This document shows, one piece after another, positions 2,756-53,338 of a stretch of 64,000 nt of DNA. Below the pieces are notes generated by a model that was given only the letters and a program-made list of their open reading frames with translations, was not told the origin of the DNA and ran no database searches. Within the stretch, counting starts at the first letter, position 1. The number at the start of each line of letters is the position of its first letter. The stretch comes from Flagellimonas marinaquae (GTDB lineage: Bacteria > Bacteroidota > Bacteroidia > Flavobacteriales > Flavobacteriaceae), in contig NZ_CP092415.1 of assembly GCF_023716465.1 (NCBI RefSeq), positions 1 through 64,000 on the forward strand, in the 5' to 3' direction. Position numbers and translations under genes: made by a program.

Positions 2756-3400
2756 TTAAACCTTGGCATTTTTTTGTTGCTTGATATTGGAAATATCATA
2801 GCCAGCAAATTTTTTCATATAGTAGGAGATGCTACTTCCGTACGCATCGGTTACATCGTTTTGCCCATAAGATCGCAGATATTTTTTTACGTTACCGGCT
2901 CCGGCCAAATGTGCCGCAGCCAATATTCCGGATTCGGTAACTTGAATGCCACCGATCGTTTTGCCTTTGAAACGTTTGATATCTCTTCGCAAAATCCATT
3001 TGTTACGGGCAATGTTGGCCTCAAAAGCCTTTTCTTGAAGTTCTGGGTTCGACAGAAAATCATCCATATCGTAAACGCCCATCAAATTTAAGGTACTACT
3101 ACCAAATTGGTACTTACCTAAATAACCCAATGTGTTTACTCTATGATATTTACCCTGGGATTCTTTGAAAGCGAGCGCTTCCTTAAAGCCATTAAAGGCT
3201 TTGCCCAAAAAAGGAGGTGTTACCTCATCCTCTTCTAAAAGTGCAATGGAGCTTTGTGGCGCAAAAATCTCCGAATTGGCCATAACCTTAAGTGAATCAG
3301 GAATTTCAACAGTTTCCTTTTTCATTACGGTGTAGGTACCAAAACTTGTCAAAACTACGATCATGGCAAGATGCAGTATAAAACCAATCCATCTTTTCAT
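2756..3400 (-). CDS. Exported lysozyme-like peptidoglycan-active protein
   Basis: A 214-residue protein with one N-terminal hydrophobic segment (about 5-22) serving as signal or anchor. The core FKESQGKYHRVNTLGYLGKYQFG resembles the catalytic-Glu region of transglycosylase/lysozyme folds, with Glu80 as the candidate acid, followed by an alanine-rich AAHLAGAGN segment also typical of that fold. Flavobacterial relatives are often labelled peptidoglycan-binding. I chose the ATG at 3400 because it directly precedes the signal segment (MKRW); an upstream in-frame start at 3439 would put 13 charged residues before it. A TATATTTG -7 element on this strand at 3456-3463 supports a start downstream of it. 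Activity is inferred. Confidence 0.75.
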   Translation of the reverse strand: MKRWIGFILHLAMIVVLTSFGTYTVMKKETVEIPDSLKVMANSEIFAPQSSIALLEEDEVTPPFLGKAFNGFKEALAFKESQGKYHRVNTLGYLGKYQFGSSTLNLMGVYDMDDFLSNPELQEKAFEANIARNKWILRRDIKRFKGKTIGGIQVTESGILAAAHLAGAGNVKKYLRSYGQNDVTDAYGSSISYYMKKFAGYDISNIKQQKNAKV

Positions 3401-3455
3401 AATGTTCTCTTTTGTGATCTCGATACATATACGTATCAAAAATCAATTTGGCCGG

Positions 3456-3463
3456 CAAATATA
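3456..3463 (-). promoter_or_regulatory. Bacteroidota -7 element (TATATTTG)
   Basis: TATATTTG on the minus strand matches the TAnnTTTG consensus. No TTG was found at the usual distance, so this is half a promoter only. It would drive the lysozyme-like gene. Confidence 0.45.
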
Positions 3464-3559
3464 GGGGGAGATATTTTAACGGGTACCCTAAAGCTCATAA
3501 AGATTTCTTAAATGAGGCTTAAAATCCGTTAAAGTGATGAATATCAACGGTAAAGAGCC

Positions 3560-4603
3560 CTATCTAAGTACCTTTTGTTGATTTAACCAACGGGTGTACT
3601 GCACTTTATTTCGGTTGTGCTGCGCCAAAGTTTTGGCAAACATGTGGTACCCAAAGTTGGAAACGTCTGCCACAAAATAGAGATAATCGTGCTTTTCTGG
3701 ATTCAAAACGGCATCTATCGAGGTAATGTCCGGCATGGTAATCGGTCCCGGTGGAACACCTGCATATTTATAGGTATTGTATGGAGAATCCATTTCCAGA
3801 TCACGAAAGAGTACTCTTTTTATAATTGTATCATAGTTACCGGTCTCTTTTTTAATGGCATAGATTACGGTAGGATCGGCCTGGAGCAACATCCCTCTTT
3901 TGATTCTGTTCAGGTAAACCCCGGCAACACGAGGTCGCTCATCCACCTTTGCGGTTTCTTTTTGTACAATGGCTGCCAAAGAAGTAACCTCGTTTGGCGT
4001 AAGACCCAAACTTTTGGCCTTTTGTAGTCGGGTATCTGTCCAAAAGCGGTCATATTCTTTTTTCATCCTGTCCCTAAAACCCTCTGCATTTGTATTCCAG
4101 AAAAATTCGTAGGTATTGGGAATATACATGGCCAACTTGGTATCTTCATCAAACCCTTGCTCTTGCAGAAAACCGGGATCATTGAATGTTTGTAACAACG
4201 ATAAGCTATCTGCCTCTATTTGCTCAGCGACCCGTCCCGCCAACAAAGCCAACGATTCTTGGTTATTAAAGGAAACCTGCACAGGAATATTGGCACTGCG
4301 CAAGGTATTGATGATGTCGTTATTGTTCATCCCTTTTTTGAGTGCATATTTTCCTGCTTTTATGTTATTGATATATCCCTTGCGTTTGGCAACAGCCTCA
4401 AAAGAAGACATATCTTTCAATAAAGGCTCAACGGAGGTGGTAACATCGGAAAACGAAGCATCCGAAGCAATGTAAACATATGCTTCGCTATTATTGAACT
4501 GTGTATTGGGGCTAAAAATGGCGCTATAAATCCGATATGCGATAAAACCACAAATTATCAGTCCAAGTATGGCCGTGGCCCAAAGTACTTTTTTAAGATT
4601 CAT
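3560..4603 (-). CDS. mltG: Endolytic transglycosylase MltG
   Basis: MltG (YceG family) cleaves nascent glycan strands in the periplasm while anchored in the inner membrane, setting glycan length. A single transmembrane helix (about residues 6-27) precedes a YceG domain. The catalytic glutamate is Glu216 in the QKETAKVDERP motif, followed by GVYLNRI, ADPTV and YAGVPPGPI, all conserved in the family. At 347 residues it has normal length. It overlaps the upstream GNAT gene by 11 bases, and dapF overlaps that, so all three are very likely one operon dealing with cell-wall precursor supply and glycan processing. Confidence 0.95.
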   Translation of the reverse strand: MNLKKVLWATAILGLIICGFIAYRIYSAIFSPNTQFNNSEAYVYIASDASFSDVTTSVEPLLKDMSSFEAVAKRKGYINNIKAGKYALKKGMNNNDIINTLRSANIPVQVSFNNQESLALLAGRVAEQIEADSLSLLQTFNDPGFLQEQGFDEDTKLAMYIPNTYEFFWNTNAEGFRDRMKKEYDRFWTDTRLQKAKSLGLTPNEVTSLAAIVQKETAKVDERPRVAGVYLNRIKRGMLLQADPTVIYAIKKETGNYDTIIKRVLFRDLEMDSPYNTYKYAGVPPGPITMPDITSIDAVLNPEKHDYLYFVADVSNFGYHMFAKTLAQHNRNKVQYTRWLNQQKVLR

Positions 4604-50881: not shown

Positions 50882-51397
50882 ATGTTCAATAAAAATATCA
50901 AGCTCGTTATTGCCGTTCTTATTATAGCCTATGCCGTATTTCAGTTTATTGAGGGCAATATTGGCAATGGAATTGCACTGATCTTGCTCTCCCTTGTTTT
51001 CATTTTTCTTTATTTCCGGAACGAGTTCATTCTTTTGGCGTTTCTTAAAATGAGAAAACAGGATTTGGACGGTGTACAGGGCTGGTTGGATAAAATTAAG
51101 AACCCGGAATCTGCATTGATAAAAAAGCAAGTGGGATATTACAATTATTTGCACGGTATCATCTACTCCCAGAAAAATCTGACCCAGGCCGAAAAATACT
51201 TTAAAAAGGCCCTAAAATTTGGTTTGACCATGGATTACGATGTGGCCATGACCAAATTGAGCTTGGCCGGTATTGCCATGCAAAAGCGCAGAAAGCGTGA
51301 AGCGACACAATTGTTGCAAGAAGCCAAAAAATTGGATAAAAACAATATGCTTACCGATCAAATCAAAATGATGCAGCAGCAGATGAAAAAGATTTAA
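50882..51397 (+). CDS. Membrane protein with TPR-like helices (DUF2892-like N-terminus)
   Basis: A 171-residue protein. Two N-terminal membrane helices (about 6-24 and 28-46) are joined by the Gly-rich IEGNIGNGIAL turn, similar to DUF2892. The cytoplasmic remainder has tetratricopeptide-like helix pairs (YYNYLHGIIYSQKNLTQAEKYFKKALKFG, about 97-125) and ends with a Gln/Met/Lys-rich helix. Role unknown; TPR segments suggest protein-protein contacts at the inner membrane. Confidence 0.82.
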   Translation: MFNKNIKLVIAVLIIAYAVFQFIEGNIGNGIALILLSLVFIFLYFRNEFILLAFLKMRKQDLDGVQGWLDKIKNPESALIKKQVGYYNYLHGIIYSQKNLTQAEKYFKKALKFGLTMDYDVAMTKLSLAGIAMQKRRKREATQLLQEAKKLDKNNMLTDQIKMMQQQMKKI

Positions 51398-51559
51398 TTT
51401 TTACTTTATCTTTTTTTTTTGGTGGTATTGCACACTTGATTTGGGATGCCTCCGCTCCATGATTTGTTATTAAAAGGCCCCTTAAAAATTTCTGTATTTC
51501 GAATGCATCTTTTTTAAAGTTCTATCGTCTATTAAGTGAACCATAAAATTCATTCACTT

Positions 51560-51664
51560 ATGAAAACAGGTAAATCTTGTAATTGCAATTGCGAACCTTG
51601 TAACAACGGAAGATGTTCAGATTGTACATGCAACAACTGTACGTGCACCAATTGTAATTGTTAA
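51560..51664 (+). CDS. Small metallothionein-like cysteine-rich peptide
   Basis: A 34-residue reading frame with 11 cysteines (positions 7, 9, 11, 14, 19, 22, 24, 27, 29, 32, 34). The spacing C-x-C-x-C-x2-C-x4-C-x2-C-x-C-x2-C-x-C-x2-C-x-C is that of metal-thiolate cluster proteins. There are no aromatic residues and no histidine. The second half is a five-residue repeat (CTCNN, CTCTN, CNC). It starts at an ATG and has a TAA stop. It is followed after 52 bases by an ECF sigma factor with its own cysteine tail. I infer a cytoplasmic metal-binding peptide (Cu(I), Zn or Cd) under control of that sigma factor. It is shorter than known bacterial metallothioneins (about 50 residues), so no family name is claimed. 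Confidence 0.72.
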   Translation: MKTGKSCNCNCEPCNNGRCSDCTCNNCTCTNCNC

Positions 51665-51670
51665 ACCAAG

Positions 51671-51702
51671 AATCAGCTTGAATTATGATGTTCAAGCTGA
51701 TT
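51671..51702 (+). promoter_or_regulatory. 12-bp perfect hairpin between the metallothionein-like and sigma genes
   Basis: Arms AATCAGCTTGAA (51671-51682) and TTCAAGCTGATT (51691-51702) are fully complementary with an 8-base loop, followed by the T-rich GTTTATCTTT. It begins 6 bases after the first stop and ends 14 bases before the sigma ATG. It could be a leaky terminator/attenuator or an mRNA stability hairpin that makes much peptide mRNA and little sigma mRNA. Confidence 0.7.
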
Positions 51703-51716
51703 GTTTATCTTTAAGT

Positions 51717-52256
51717 ATGACCACAACACAGATTTGGGAGACATATTCACAAGACATCAAACGTTTTATTCTCAGTAAAACCAAAGATGAAACTGTTGCA
51801 AATGATATTTTACAAGACACCTTTATAAAGGTACACACCAAGCTGCACACCCTAAAAGATGGCAACAAGCTAAAATCTTGGTTGTTTTCCGTAGCGCGAT
51901 ATACTTTAATGGATTATTTAAAAACCAGTAAAGTAAAAATTGAATTTAATGATTTTGATACAGAGGATGTTCCTGAAACCCATGAACATACCGAAAAAGA
52001 TTGTTTAAGAGGTATTTTAGTTAATCTAACTAAAAAATACAGAGAACCTATCTTTTTGGCCGATATAATGGGCTTAAAACAAAAAGAGGTTGCAAAAAAA
52101 TTAAGTTTACCGTTACCCACCGTAAAATCGCAAATACAACGTGGACGACAAAAAATTGCCGAAGGCTTTATGGATTGTTGTGGTTACGAAATGAGTGAAC
52201 AAGGCTATCTAGTAGGCCAATTACAGGACAAAGAGGATTGCAAAATTTGCAAGTAG
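51717..52256 (+). CDS. ECF-type RNA polymerase sigma factor, SigZ-like, with C-terminal cysteine tail
   Basis: A 179-residue sigma factor. Region 2 (about 5-70) has DETVANDILQDTFIKVHTKL and KSWLFSVARYTLMDYLK; region 4 (about 97-150) has LRGILVNLTKKYREPIFLAD and the recognition helix LPLPTVKSQIQRGRQKI. After region 4 the tail MDCCGYEMSEQGYLVGQL plus DKEDCKICK carries Cys154, Cys155, Cys175 and Cys178. The linker has HEHTEKDC (His89, His91, Cys96). These could bind a metal directly, as the cysteine-rich domain of myxobacterial CorE does; no anti-sigma gene is adjacent. The ATG at 51717 is preferred to a TTG at 51678 inside the hairpin. The gene is AT-rich: 51901-51960 has only 10 G/C of 60. Confidence 0.88.
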   Translation: MTTTQIWETYSQDIKRFILSKTKDETVANDILQDTFIKVHTKLHTLKDGNKLKSWLFSVARYTLMDYLKTSKVKIEFNDFDTEDVPETHEHTEKDCLRGILVNLTKKYREPIFLADIMGLKQKEVAKKLSLPLPTVKSQIQRGRQKIAEGFMDCCGYEMSEQGYLVGQLQDKEDCKICK

Positions 52257-52369
52257 ACCCGAATAAAACTATTCTTTTGTTTTGCTTTGGAGTGTTAGGT
52301 ATTGAGATAGATAACCCCAAACAAAAAGCAATTTACCAGTGTAACCAAAAATATTAGGGCCAATACCAA

Positions 52370-53338
52370 TTACTTCCCCACATTCCCCACTCGGTAATAT
52401 CCTTTGTTCGGTATTTCTATGGTGTACTTTTTGCGGGAAACATTGTTTAAATGAGGTTCGCGCAACCAAGGGTTGTGTCGTTTTAATATCTTATAGTTTA
52501 TTTCGTACTGTTCTGCGAAATCCGCCCAATTGGATACCGCAGTATCAATTTCAACGGTAAAAGTGGGCACCTTTTCGTACATATCGTCCTGATCTAACTG
52601 AAAACCATATTTCTCTGGATGGGATAGAATTTCTTTAATGGCCAAAATGCGGAACACATAGCGGCCTGTCTCCTGCCCCAACAATAGATCGTAATAATCG
52701 TCCACTTGTTGAATATCCATATATTTTTGAACCCCGGCAGGTCCGGCATTGTACGCGGCAGCGGTAAGGGTCCAGCTACCAAAACGATTTTTCCATTTGT
52801 TTAAATAGTCGCAAGCGACCTGAGTCGCTTTTTCCACATGATAGCGTTCATCCACATTGGAATTGACCTCCAGACCGTACTCCTTGCCCGTGGCGCGCAT
52901 TATCTGCCAAAAACCGGTAGCCCCTGCTGGGGAAACTACATTTTGCAAACCACTTTCGGCCACGGCCAAATATTTAAAGTCATCCGGGATTCCGTTCTTT
53001 TTAAGAATGGGTTCAATGATTGGAAAGTATTTGTTGGCCCTTTTCATCAATAAAAGGGCATTGGATTGCCAATAGGTGTTCACCAAAAACTCCCGGTCCA
53101 CGCGCTCCATGATCTCTGGATCTTCCTGTGGAACCGCTTCTCCGGCAAAATTCAGGTCCTCAGGGATTTCAATGGCGCTTATTTGATATGTATCCGCAAC
53201 ATTTTTGTCCGATTCCGTTGTTTCAACTTCTTGCAATTCTGGTTTATCATCCACTTCATTCGACTGCACGGCAAAAATCAAAGTGCTCACTACGGCCATT
53301 AATCCAATAAAGGCCAATATGTTTTTTACTTGTTTCAT
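52370..53338 (-). CDS. Membrane-bound lytic transglycosylase (MltD-like, SLT domain)
   Basis: A 322-residue periplasmic murein hydrolase. An N-terminal hydrophobic segment (about 5-23) is a signal or anchor. The SLT (GH23) domain covers about 95-245: the catalytic Glu is in AVAESGLQNVVSPAGATGFW, followed by QIMRATGKEYGLEVNSNVDER and NAGPAGVQKYM. The C-terminal WADFAEQYEINYKILKRHNPW region is one LysM-like module (about 265-310), fewer than in E. coli MltD. It cleaves the MurNAc-GlcNAc bond; stand-alone gene. Confidence 0.93.
   Translation of the reverse strand: MKQVKNILAFIGLMAVVSTLIFAVQSNEVDDKPELQEVETTESDKNVADTYQISAIEIPEDLNFAGEAVPQEDPEIMERVDREFLVNTYWQSNALLLMKRANKYFPIIEPILKKNGIPDDFKYLAVAESGLQNVVSPAGATGFWQIMRATGKEYGLEVNSNVDERYHVEKATQVACDYLNKWKNRFGSWTLTAAAYNAGPAGVQKYMDIQQVDDYYDLLLGQETGRYVFRILAIKEILSHPEKYGFQLDQDDMYEKVPTFTVEIDTAVSNWADFAEQYEINYKILKRHNPWLREPHLNNVSRKKYTIEIPNKGYYRVGNVGK

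Follow-up and report, generated by a model that had tools for sequence, protein, structure and literature searches.

In Flagellimonas marinaquae, a gene for a 34-residue peptide with 11 cysteines stands directly in front of a gene for an ECF sigma factor. What does such a pair do, and does one gene control the other? A first-pass annotation of the window, by which we mean the whole stretch of 64,000 nucleotides that was analysed, proposed a module in which the sigma factor responds to metal, or to thiol redox, and governs both the peptide and itself. Both genes are real and lie on the same strand, with the peptide gene first. The span assigned to them, 51560 to 52256, has the correct start and end, but the functional unit begins further upstream, at the predicted promoter. 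The features of the locus are as follows.

50882-51397, + strand (same strand as the module): TPR-like protein, named from its reading frame
51504-51531, + strand: predicted ECF-type promoter, composed of T, the -35 box GCATC (51505-51509), a T-tract, a 16-base spacer and the -10 region CGTCTA (51526-51531)
51532-51559, + strand: short leader with TGAAC...TAAAA-like conserved blocks ahead of the peptide ATG, from position frequencies in 102 unique sequences
51560-51664, + strand: metallothionein-like peptide gene, 34 aa, 11 Cys
51671-51702, + strand: intergenic hairpin of 13 pairs, a candidate attenuator or terminator between the peptide and sigma genes
51717-52256, + strand: ECF sigma factor gene, 179 aa, from Pfam matches, invariant columns and an AlphaFold2 model
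52370-53338, - strand (opposite to the module): MltD-like lytic transglycosylase, named from its reading frame

The flanking genes have no apparent connection with metals, and we assign them no role. On reading of the open reading frames, no anti-sigma-like frame was seen among the adjacent genes. An Rfam search of 51300-52400 gave no riboswitch or known RNA at E ≤ 0.1.

The cysteine-rich peptide and its pairing with the sigma gene

The peptide, MKTGKSCNCNCEPCNNGRCSDCTCNNCTCTNCNC, has its cysteines in the spacing C-x-C-x-C-x2-C-x4-C-x2-C-x-C-x2-C-x-C-x2-C-x-C. This frame is not a product of chance, because the best open stretch in 60 first-order Markov windows of equal length never surpassed 7 Cys per 30 residues, as against 11 in the real window. 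Small size, high cysteine content and conserved C-x-C and C-x-x-C arrays, by which metallothioneins are recognized, are all found in the peptide. A density of C-x-C and C-x2-C pairs of this kind is typical of metal clusters, and the peptide is probably metal-sequestering. In these respects it resembles the bacterial metallothioneins SmtA/BmtA of PF02069 and MymT. Unlike them, it contains no histidine, matches none of the Pfam and NCBIfam models at E ≤ 1, those of the known bacterial metallothionein families included, and, when its profile was compared with solved structures, had no relative at E ≤ 1.

Absence of the small frame beside homologous sigma genes, or loss of its cysteines in relatives, had been named beforehand as findings that would speak against a module. 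Both the pairing and the cysteines persist in relatives. In all of the 80 named loci, those kept of 215 found, an 11-Cys peptide is encoded within 1.2 kb ahead of the sigma gene. These loci belong to Winogradskyella, Tenacibaculum, Polaribacter, Mesoflavibacter, Tamlana, Bizionia, Lacinutrix and Lutibacter, and the others to less well named Flavobacteriaceae or Bacteroidia. In all 29 best non-self relatives the peptide gene likewise comes just before the sigma gene, here on its strand; one of these loci (L034) is decayed. In this decaying copy the peptide is cut to 9 Cys and the sigma frame is broken by two stops, and the promoter is retained. The window, the 29 relatives and the 80 named loci give 110 loci; the collections partly overlap and hold 104 unique DNA sequences. 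The 11 cysteines are retained with identical spacing in 109 of the 110, L034 being the exception. This invariance is partly by construction, because cysteines were required by the pattern used in the search; what does not depend on the construction is that 109 of 110 sigma loci satisfy the pattern. Both TGT and TGC are used at every cysteine position among the 104 unique sequences. The median dN/dS of the peptide gene is 0.17 (186 usable of 600 sampled pairs, the other 414 being excluded for a dS that was zero, 2 or more, or not computable).

The spread of the pair was surveyed in 299 genomes of the same family, the window's genome included. Sigma relatives at E ≤ 1e-30 were found in 45 of them, and a peptide profile, run independently on the same genomes, matched in 47. 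All 36 genomes with a sigma factor of the window's clade (clade A) also have the peptide; the sigma factor is at least 41% identical to that of the window in 35 of them and 34% identical in G057. A match to the peptide profile without such a sigma factor occurs in 11 genomes, and a weaker sigma factor (34-39% identity) without a match to the 11-Cys profile in 9. At one locus with neither sigma gene nor promoter motif (L207), the 11-Cys peptide (1719-1817) lies near a frame for a His-rich, CDF-like exporter (2802-3686), named from its letters. At another sigma-less locus (L202) the peptide, at 2005-2103, has two further frames as neighbors, which we take to be a carbonic anhydrase and a SulP transporter.

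A near-invariant promoter motif

The predicted promoter before the peptide ATG reads TGCATCTTTT...GTCTA. The pattern GCATC-N16-NGTC stands ahead of the peptide in 108 of the 110 loci; in L169 one base of GTCT is changed, and in L126 no motif lies within the stretch read. When the spacer was left free in the search, it was always 16 (29 of 29 in the best-relative set, window included, and 78 of 80 named loci). Positions outside the pattern are also nearly fixed among 102 unique sequences: T precedes GCATC in 98%, the subsequent T-tract is kept in 92-100%, and GTC is followed by T in 100% and then by A in 93%. No copy of the motif was found between the peptide and sigma genes in 31 loci, and one locus (L015) has a loose copy at another place in the locus. 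In the leader, TGAAC lies 6 nt after GTCT and is followed by an A-rich block conserved in clade A; similar letters occur in the sister clade (clade B).

By the counts obtained, the presence of the motif tracks the sigma gene. Of the 11 loci with the peptide only, 10 were fetched and none of these has the motif; L203 and L206 among them have lost cysteines. The 70 congeners, none with a clade-A sigma factor, gave 3 motif matches against 2 control matches, which is the control level; two of the three fall within long frames, L318 being the exception. Among the 299 genomes of the family survey there were 51 matches to the strict motif against 10 control matches. The strict motif is at the module in 32 of the 36 module genomes, and 19 matches are elsewhere. 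Fourteen of these 19 were inspected: 12 lie inside genes and reflect chance, one stands before a CDF gene in a module genome, and one precedes a short frame close to a distant sigma gene. The exact motif has a single occurrence in the genome from which the window comes. Allowing up to 2 mismatches gave 7 matches and 14 control matches, so that only the module itself stands out, and no other gene of this genome has a convincing motif.

Predicted targets in relatives

A whole-genome motif search was made in 50 of the 80 named module genomes. The motif was present in 45 of these. Its 60 matches comprise 45 at the module and 15 at other places, and the control gave 2. Of the 15 further matches, one (L254) is inside a gene and 14 are followed, at 11-37 nt, by an ATG of the same orientation. 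The 14 motif-bearing genes encode four CDF exporters, one heavy-metal P-type ATPase, one RND pump of the CusA/CzcA family, three TonB-dependent receptors of 717 residues each and five DUF3703 proteins. Family searches confirmed all four CDFs, the ATPase and the RND pump, along with two receptors out of three and two DUF3703 proteins out of five; the rest are named by sequence likeness. The family survey adds a CDF gene in the module genome G083, with the motif 23 nt upstream. These target matches are not fully independent, because the five DUF3703 genes stand directly before the module and the CDF and TonB matches come from few related genera.

The predicted targets bear on the metal. The ATPase scores 501.9 against a cut-off of 313.5 for the Cd family and 378.4 against 397 for the Cu family, and is thus above the former and below the latter. 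The CDF proteins tested exceed only the general CDF cut-off and not that of any metal-specific model; therefore the metal is not fixed by name. The Cd-family score of the ATPase and the CDF matches would point to Zn/Cd/Co rather than Cu. Since the window's genome has no other convincing motif, this link to metal is borrowed from relatives.

Twenty-five of the 80 named loci, L242-L246 among them, have a DUF3703-like gene in the same orientation just ahead of the module. GCATC-N16-NGTC precedes this gene in 19 of the 25, seven times in its strict form, and six lack the motif. A literature search for the word DUF3703 found no paper. TonB receptors are usually importers, and one group of them (L247, L249, L251 and L292, of which L249 and L292 are named by likeness only) is a predicted target in two sigma clades, which is odd for a detoxification regulon.

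The sigma factor

The sigma factor contains only regions 2 and 4, as ECF sigma factors do (PF04542, 40.2 against a cut-off of 24 bits; PF08281, 45.9 against 25.7 bits), and its best matches in sequence and fold are ECF sigma factors. It had been labelled SigZ-type, which is only approximate: the SigZ models (TIGR02959, NF007215) are its best NCBIfam matches and cover nearly the full length, but both scores are under the curated cut-offs (152.3 against 168.65 and 167 against 212 bits), so it is not assigned to the SigZ equivalog, and a metal-module context is outside the definition of that family.

Candidate metal ligands in the sigma factor had also been suggested. Five cysteines (C96, C154, C155, C175 and C178) and one histidine (H91) are invariant in 47 aligned clade-A sequences. 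The same five cysteines are invariant across both clades (19 sequences), and the invariance of H91 holds in the clade-A set only. C96 lies near H91 in the region of the sigma2-sigma4 linker, at the start of the sigma4 part after the linker. The C-terminal extension holds the C154-C155 pair and C175-x2-C178. An AlphaFold2 model from a 47-row alignment (mean pLDDT 78.7, pTM 0.50) has ordinary sigma2 and sigma4 helices and a disordered linker (74-88). The model makes the C-terminal extension short, with two small paired strands, and its confidence there is moderate to low (pLDDT 76-58 by block). The sigma factor may itself bind metal, and metal rather than thiol redox may be its signal.

Hairpin and origin of the module

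A hairpin between the two genes had been noted as one of 12 bp. It is present and terminator-like, with 13 pairs, and the stretch that holds it has a folding energy of -19 kcal/mol, compared with -7.4 on average for shuffled sequences (z -5.2). Among the homologous gaps of 35-130 nt, 101 of 103 fold at z ≤ -2 (60 shuffles each), with differing stem sequences; of the 110 loci, four with gaps of 2-10 nt and three with gaps over 130 nt were left out of this count. The hairpin may attenuate or terminate transcription and in this way determine how much peptide is made relative to sigma factor. Attenuation is not essential, because the four loci with gaps of 2-10 nt have no room for a hairpin.

In the window's genome the module is likely to have arrived horizontally, because its G+C content is low (33.7%, against 41.4% for the window) and its sigma factor sits beside those of L009-L011 in the tree. 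Sigma matches at E ≤ 1e-25 occur in 14 of 71 genomes of the genus; besides the genome of the window these are 13 with 30-35% identity, and the clade-A sigma factor is absent from the congeners. The interval 51398-52369 between the TPR and MltD genes is a variable site among congeners. It could be measured in 6 of 12 congener loci: L310 has 34 bp, and five more have 587-1408 bp, the first 400 bases of which were seen; the stretches from the other six loci do not extend to the MltD gene. Carriage on plasmids was considered and set aside: 30 plasmid records match the sigma factor at E ≤ 1e-10, all under 60% identity.

Related sigma clades in the phylum

Nine loci with a more distant sigma factor (L193-L197, L199-L201 and L038) have, at the corresponding position, a gene for another peptide, which contains 12 Cys. 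Here the -35 box is GTATC, and GTATC-N16-NGTC precedes the 12-Cys peptide in 9 of 9 loci. The stricter TGTATCYTTT-N13-GTCTMC is present in six of them and is the sole such match in each of those genomes. One further genome, G226 (L198), has a sister-type sigma factor with no Cys-rich frame near, and its only motif stands before a frame that resembles, by likeness, the start of a TonB receptor. In a midpoint-rooted tree of 71 sigma factors, those with 11-Cys partners form one clade (34 leaves, support 0.91) and those with 12-Cys partners another (15 leaves, support 0.98), and those with a downstream Cys-rich frame are not a single clade. The tree omits L034, L290 and L198 (misread), and three genomes enter it twice.

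A survey of the phylum found a sigma relative at E ≤ 1e-25 in 50 of 395 genomes, the window's included. Twenty-nine non-self loci were fetched, three of them already in the family survey. The 11-Cys peptide lies upstream in four, a 12-Cys peptide upstream in six and a Cys-rich frame downstream in four; in the other 15 no Cys-rich frame lies closer than about 1.5 kb. Among the 12-Cys loci, L269 and L271 show neither a GTATC nor a GCATC motif. Four loci from other Bacteroidota (L274, L276, L277 and L278) show the reversed order, with the sigma gene followed by a frame of 8-11 Cys, and in L274 a GCATC-N15-CGTCT-type motif precedes both the sigma gene and the Cys-rich frame. In L041, from the same genus as the window, the sigma gene is followed by a GCATC-N15-CGTCTA motif and then by a 7-Cys frame.

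Discussion

The idea of a metal-response module gains support from the conserved pairing, the near-invariant promoter that tracks the sigma gene, and the occurrence of the motif before metal-export genes in relatives. We consider it probable that the pair is an autoregulated sigma-metallothionein module for heavy-metal response, activated by Zn, Cd or Co. Both the identity of the metal and the direction of the response we infer from sequence comparison. A surplus of a soft divalent metal, most likely Zn or Cd and perhaps Co, would bind a cysteine site formed by the C-terminal extension and the linker of the sigma factor. Without metal the sigma factor would be inactive, and an anti-sigma factor would not be needed. 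The active sigma factor would direct RNA polymerase to TGCATCTTTT-N-GTCTA, resulting in strong transcription of the peptide gene. The hairpin would end or slow most transcripts after the peptide gene, and read-through would yield more sigma factor as a positive feedback. The peptide, acting as a metallothionein, would sequester the metal and remove the signal as a negative feedback. In several relatives the regulon of the same sigma factor would extend to metal exporters (CDF, P-type ATPase and RND), to a TonB-dependent receptor and to a DUF3703 protein; the window's genome would offer it no clear target besides itself.

The cysteines of the two proteins might instead sense disulfide or oxidant stress, with the peptide as a thiol buffer and not a metal store. 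The cysteine pairs could make disulfides, and frames taken to be OsmC-like lie just upstream in 18 of the 80 named loci. However, none of the 15 further motif matches stands before an OsmC-like gene, the predicted targets in relatives are metal exporters and not thioredoxin or peroxidase genes, and the density of C-x-C and C-x2-C pairs is that of metal clusters. A disulfide link has been suggested in ECF57 sigma factors (PMC8999054), and even so we regard a thiol-redox signal as improbable. Copper as the signal, with the peptide as a Cu(I) thionein, would bring the module closest in mechanism to Myxococcus CorE, a copper-dependent ECF sigma factor (PMC3107203). The CC pair of the window's sigma factor, however, resembles that of the Cd/Zn sensor CorE2 (PMC9023288). 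Cys-only clusters are able to bind Cu(I) and the RND target falls in the joint CusA/CzcA family, but the CDF transporters and the ATPase, over the Cd-family and under the Cu-family cut-off, point to Zn/Cd/Co, and we give copper little credence.

The two genes might also be neighbors with no regulatory link that were inherited together on a single mobile segment, while some other factor uses the promoter. The module does lie in a variable interval between two conserved genes, its G+C content is low, and its distribution is patchy. Against this, the pairing holds through one sigma clade down to about 41% identity with the window's sigma factor, the motif is lacking where there is no sigma gene, and the two sigma clades have different -35 boxes. 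We consider a mere neighborhood very unlikely.

The heavy-metal response module may belong to something wider, although we put this forward only tentatively, as a joint reading that we think rather doubtful: two-gene homeostats across the phylum, in which a metallothionein replaces the anti-sigma factor and serves its partner sigma factor as output and off-switch alike. It is jointly conceivable, at the same low expectation, that the peptide takes metal from the cysteine site of the sigma factor, perhaps by direct contact. The third part of this reading, no more firmly held, is that sigma clades have co-evolved with differing thioneins and -35 boxes, the exporter regulon being an optional extension.

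CorE and CorE2 of Myxococcus xanthus (ECF238, formerly ECF44) are precedents for Cys-dependent, metal-responsive ECF sigma factors (PMC9023288 and PMC8999054). Like the window's sigma factor, beside which no anti-sigma-like frame was seen, they lack an anti-sigma factor; they also share with it a cysteine-rich C-terminal extension, a linker cysteine and metal-efflux targets, which here are predicted in relatives (PMC8999054, PMC3107203 and PMC9023288). C174 of the CC pair sets the Cd/Zn specificity of CorE2 (PMC9023288), and we propose that the module may work like CorE2. The extension differs in spacing (CC-x19-C-x2-C, against CC-x3-C-x2-C-x-C in CorE/CorE2). The linker C-x-C by which the CorE group is recognized is absent, clade A having the single C96 and clade B a C-C; the window's sigma factor is therefore not a member of that group. 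Also unlike CorE and CorE2, window-type sigma genes have a constant small thionein-like gene in front, and the word metallothionein does not occur in PMC3107203, PMC8999054 and PMC9023288. OrbS of Burkholderia cenocepacia (ECF243) likewise has an on-board C-terminal cysteine metal sensor, as we propose here, but is inhibited by Fe(II) and serves iron acquisition (PMC9023288). Here a sigma factor is seemingly in charge, whereas other metallothioneins have regulators of other kinds: RicR, a CsoR homolog, controls MymT (PMC10141476), and AzuR, a member of the SmtB/ArsR family, controls Anabaena NmtA (PMC8790569). The pairing had been thought undescribed. No description was found among the titles and abstract openings listed in a literature search outside the main ECF reclassification and CorE2 papers, and none is reported in the available text of PMC8999054, PMC8103513, PMC10141476, PMC3107203, PMC9723704, PMC9023288 and PMC12119571.

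In conclusion, the novelty lies in the thionein-like peptide as a constant partner, in the promoter, in the predicted regulon and in the distribution over the Bacteroidota. Because the module is about 750 bp long and apparently mobile, it could act as a compact metal biosensor part. The predicted regulon gives a functional lead, metal response, for DUF3703 proteins and for one group of TonB receptors. If our reading is true, this would be, to our knowledge, the first bacterial metallothionein family under its own sigma factor, and the Bacteroidota would have a dedicated, apparently anti-sigma-free family of metal-sensing sigma factors with a defined promoter, peptide and predicted regulon.
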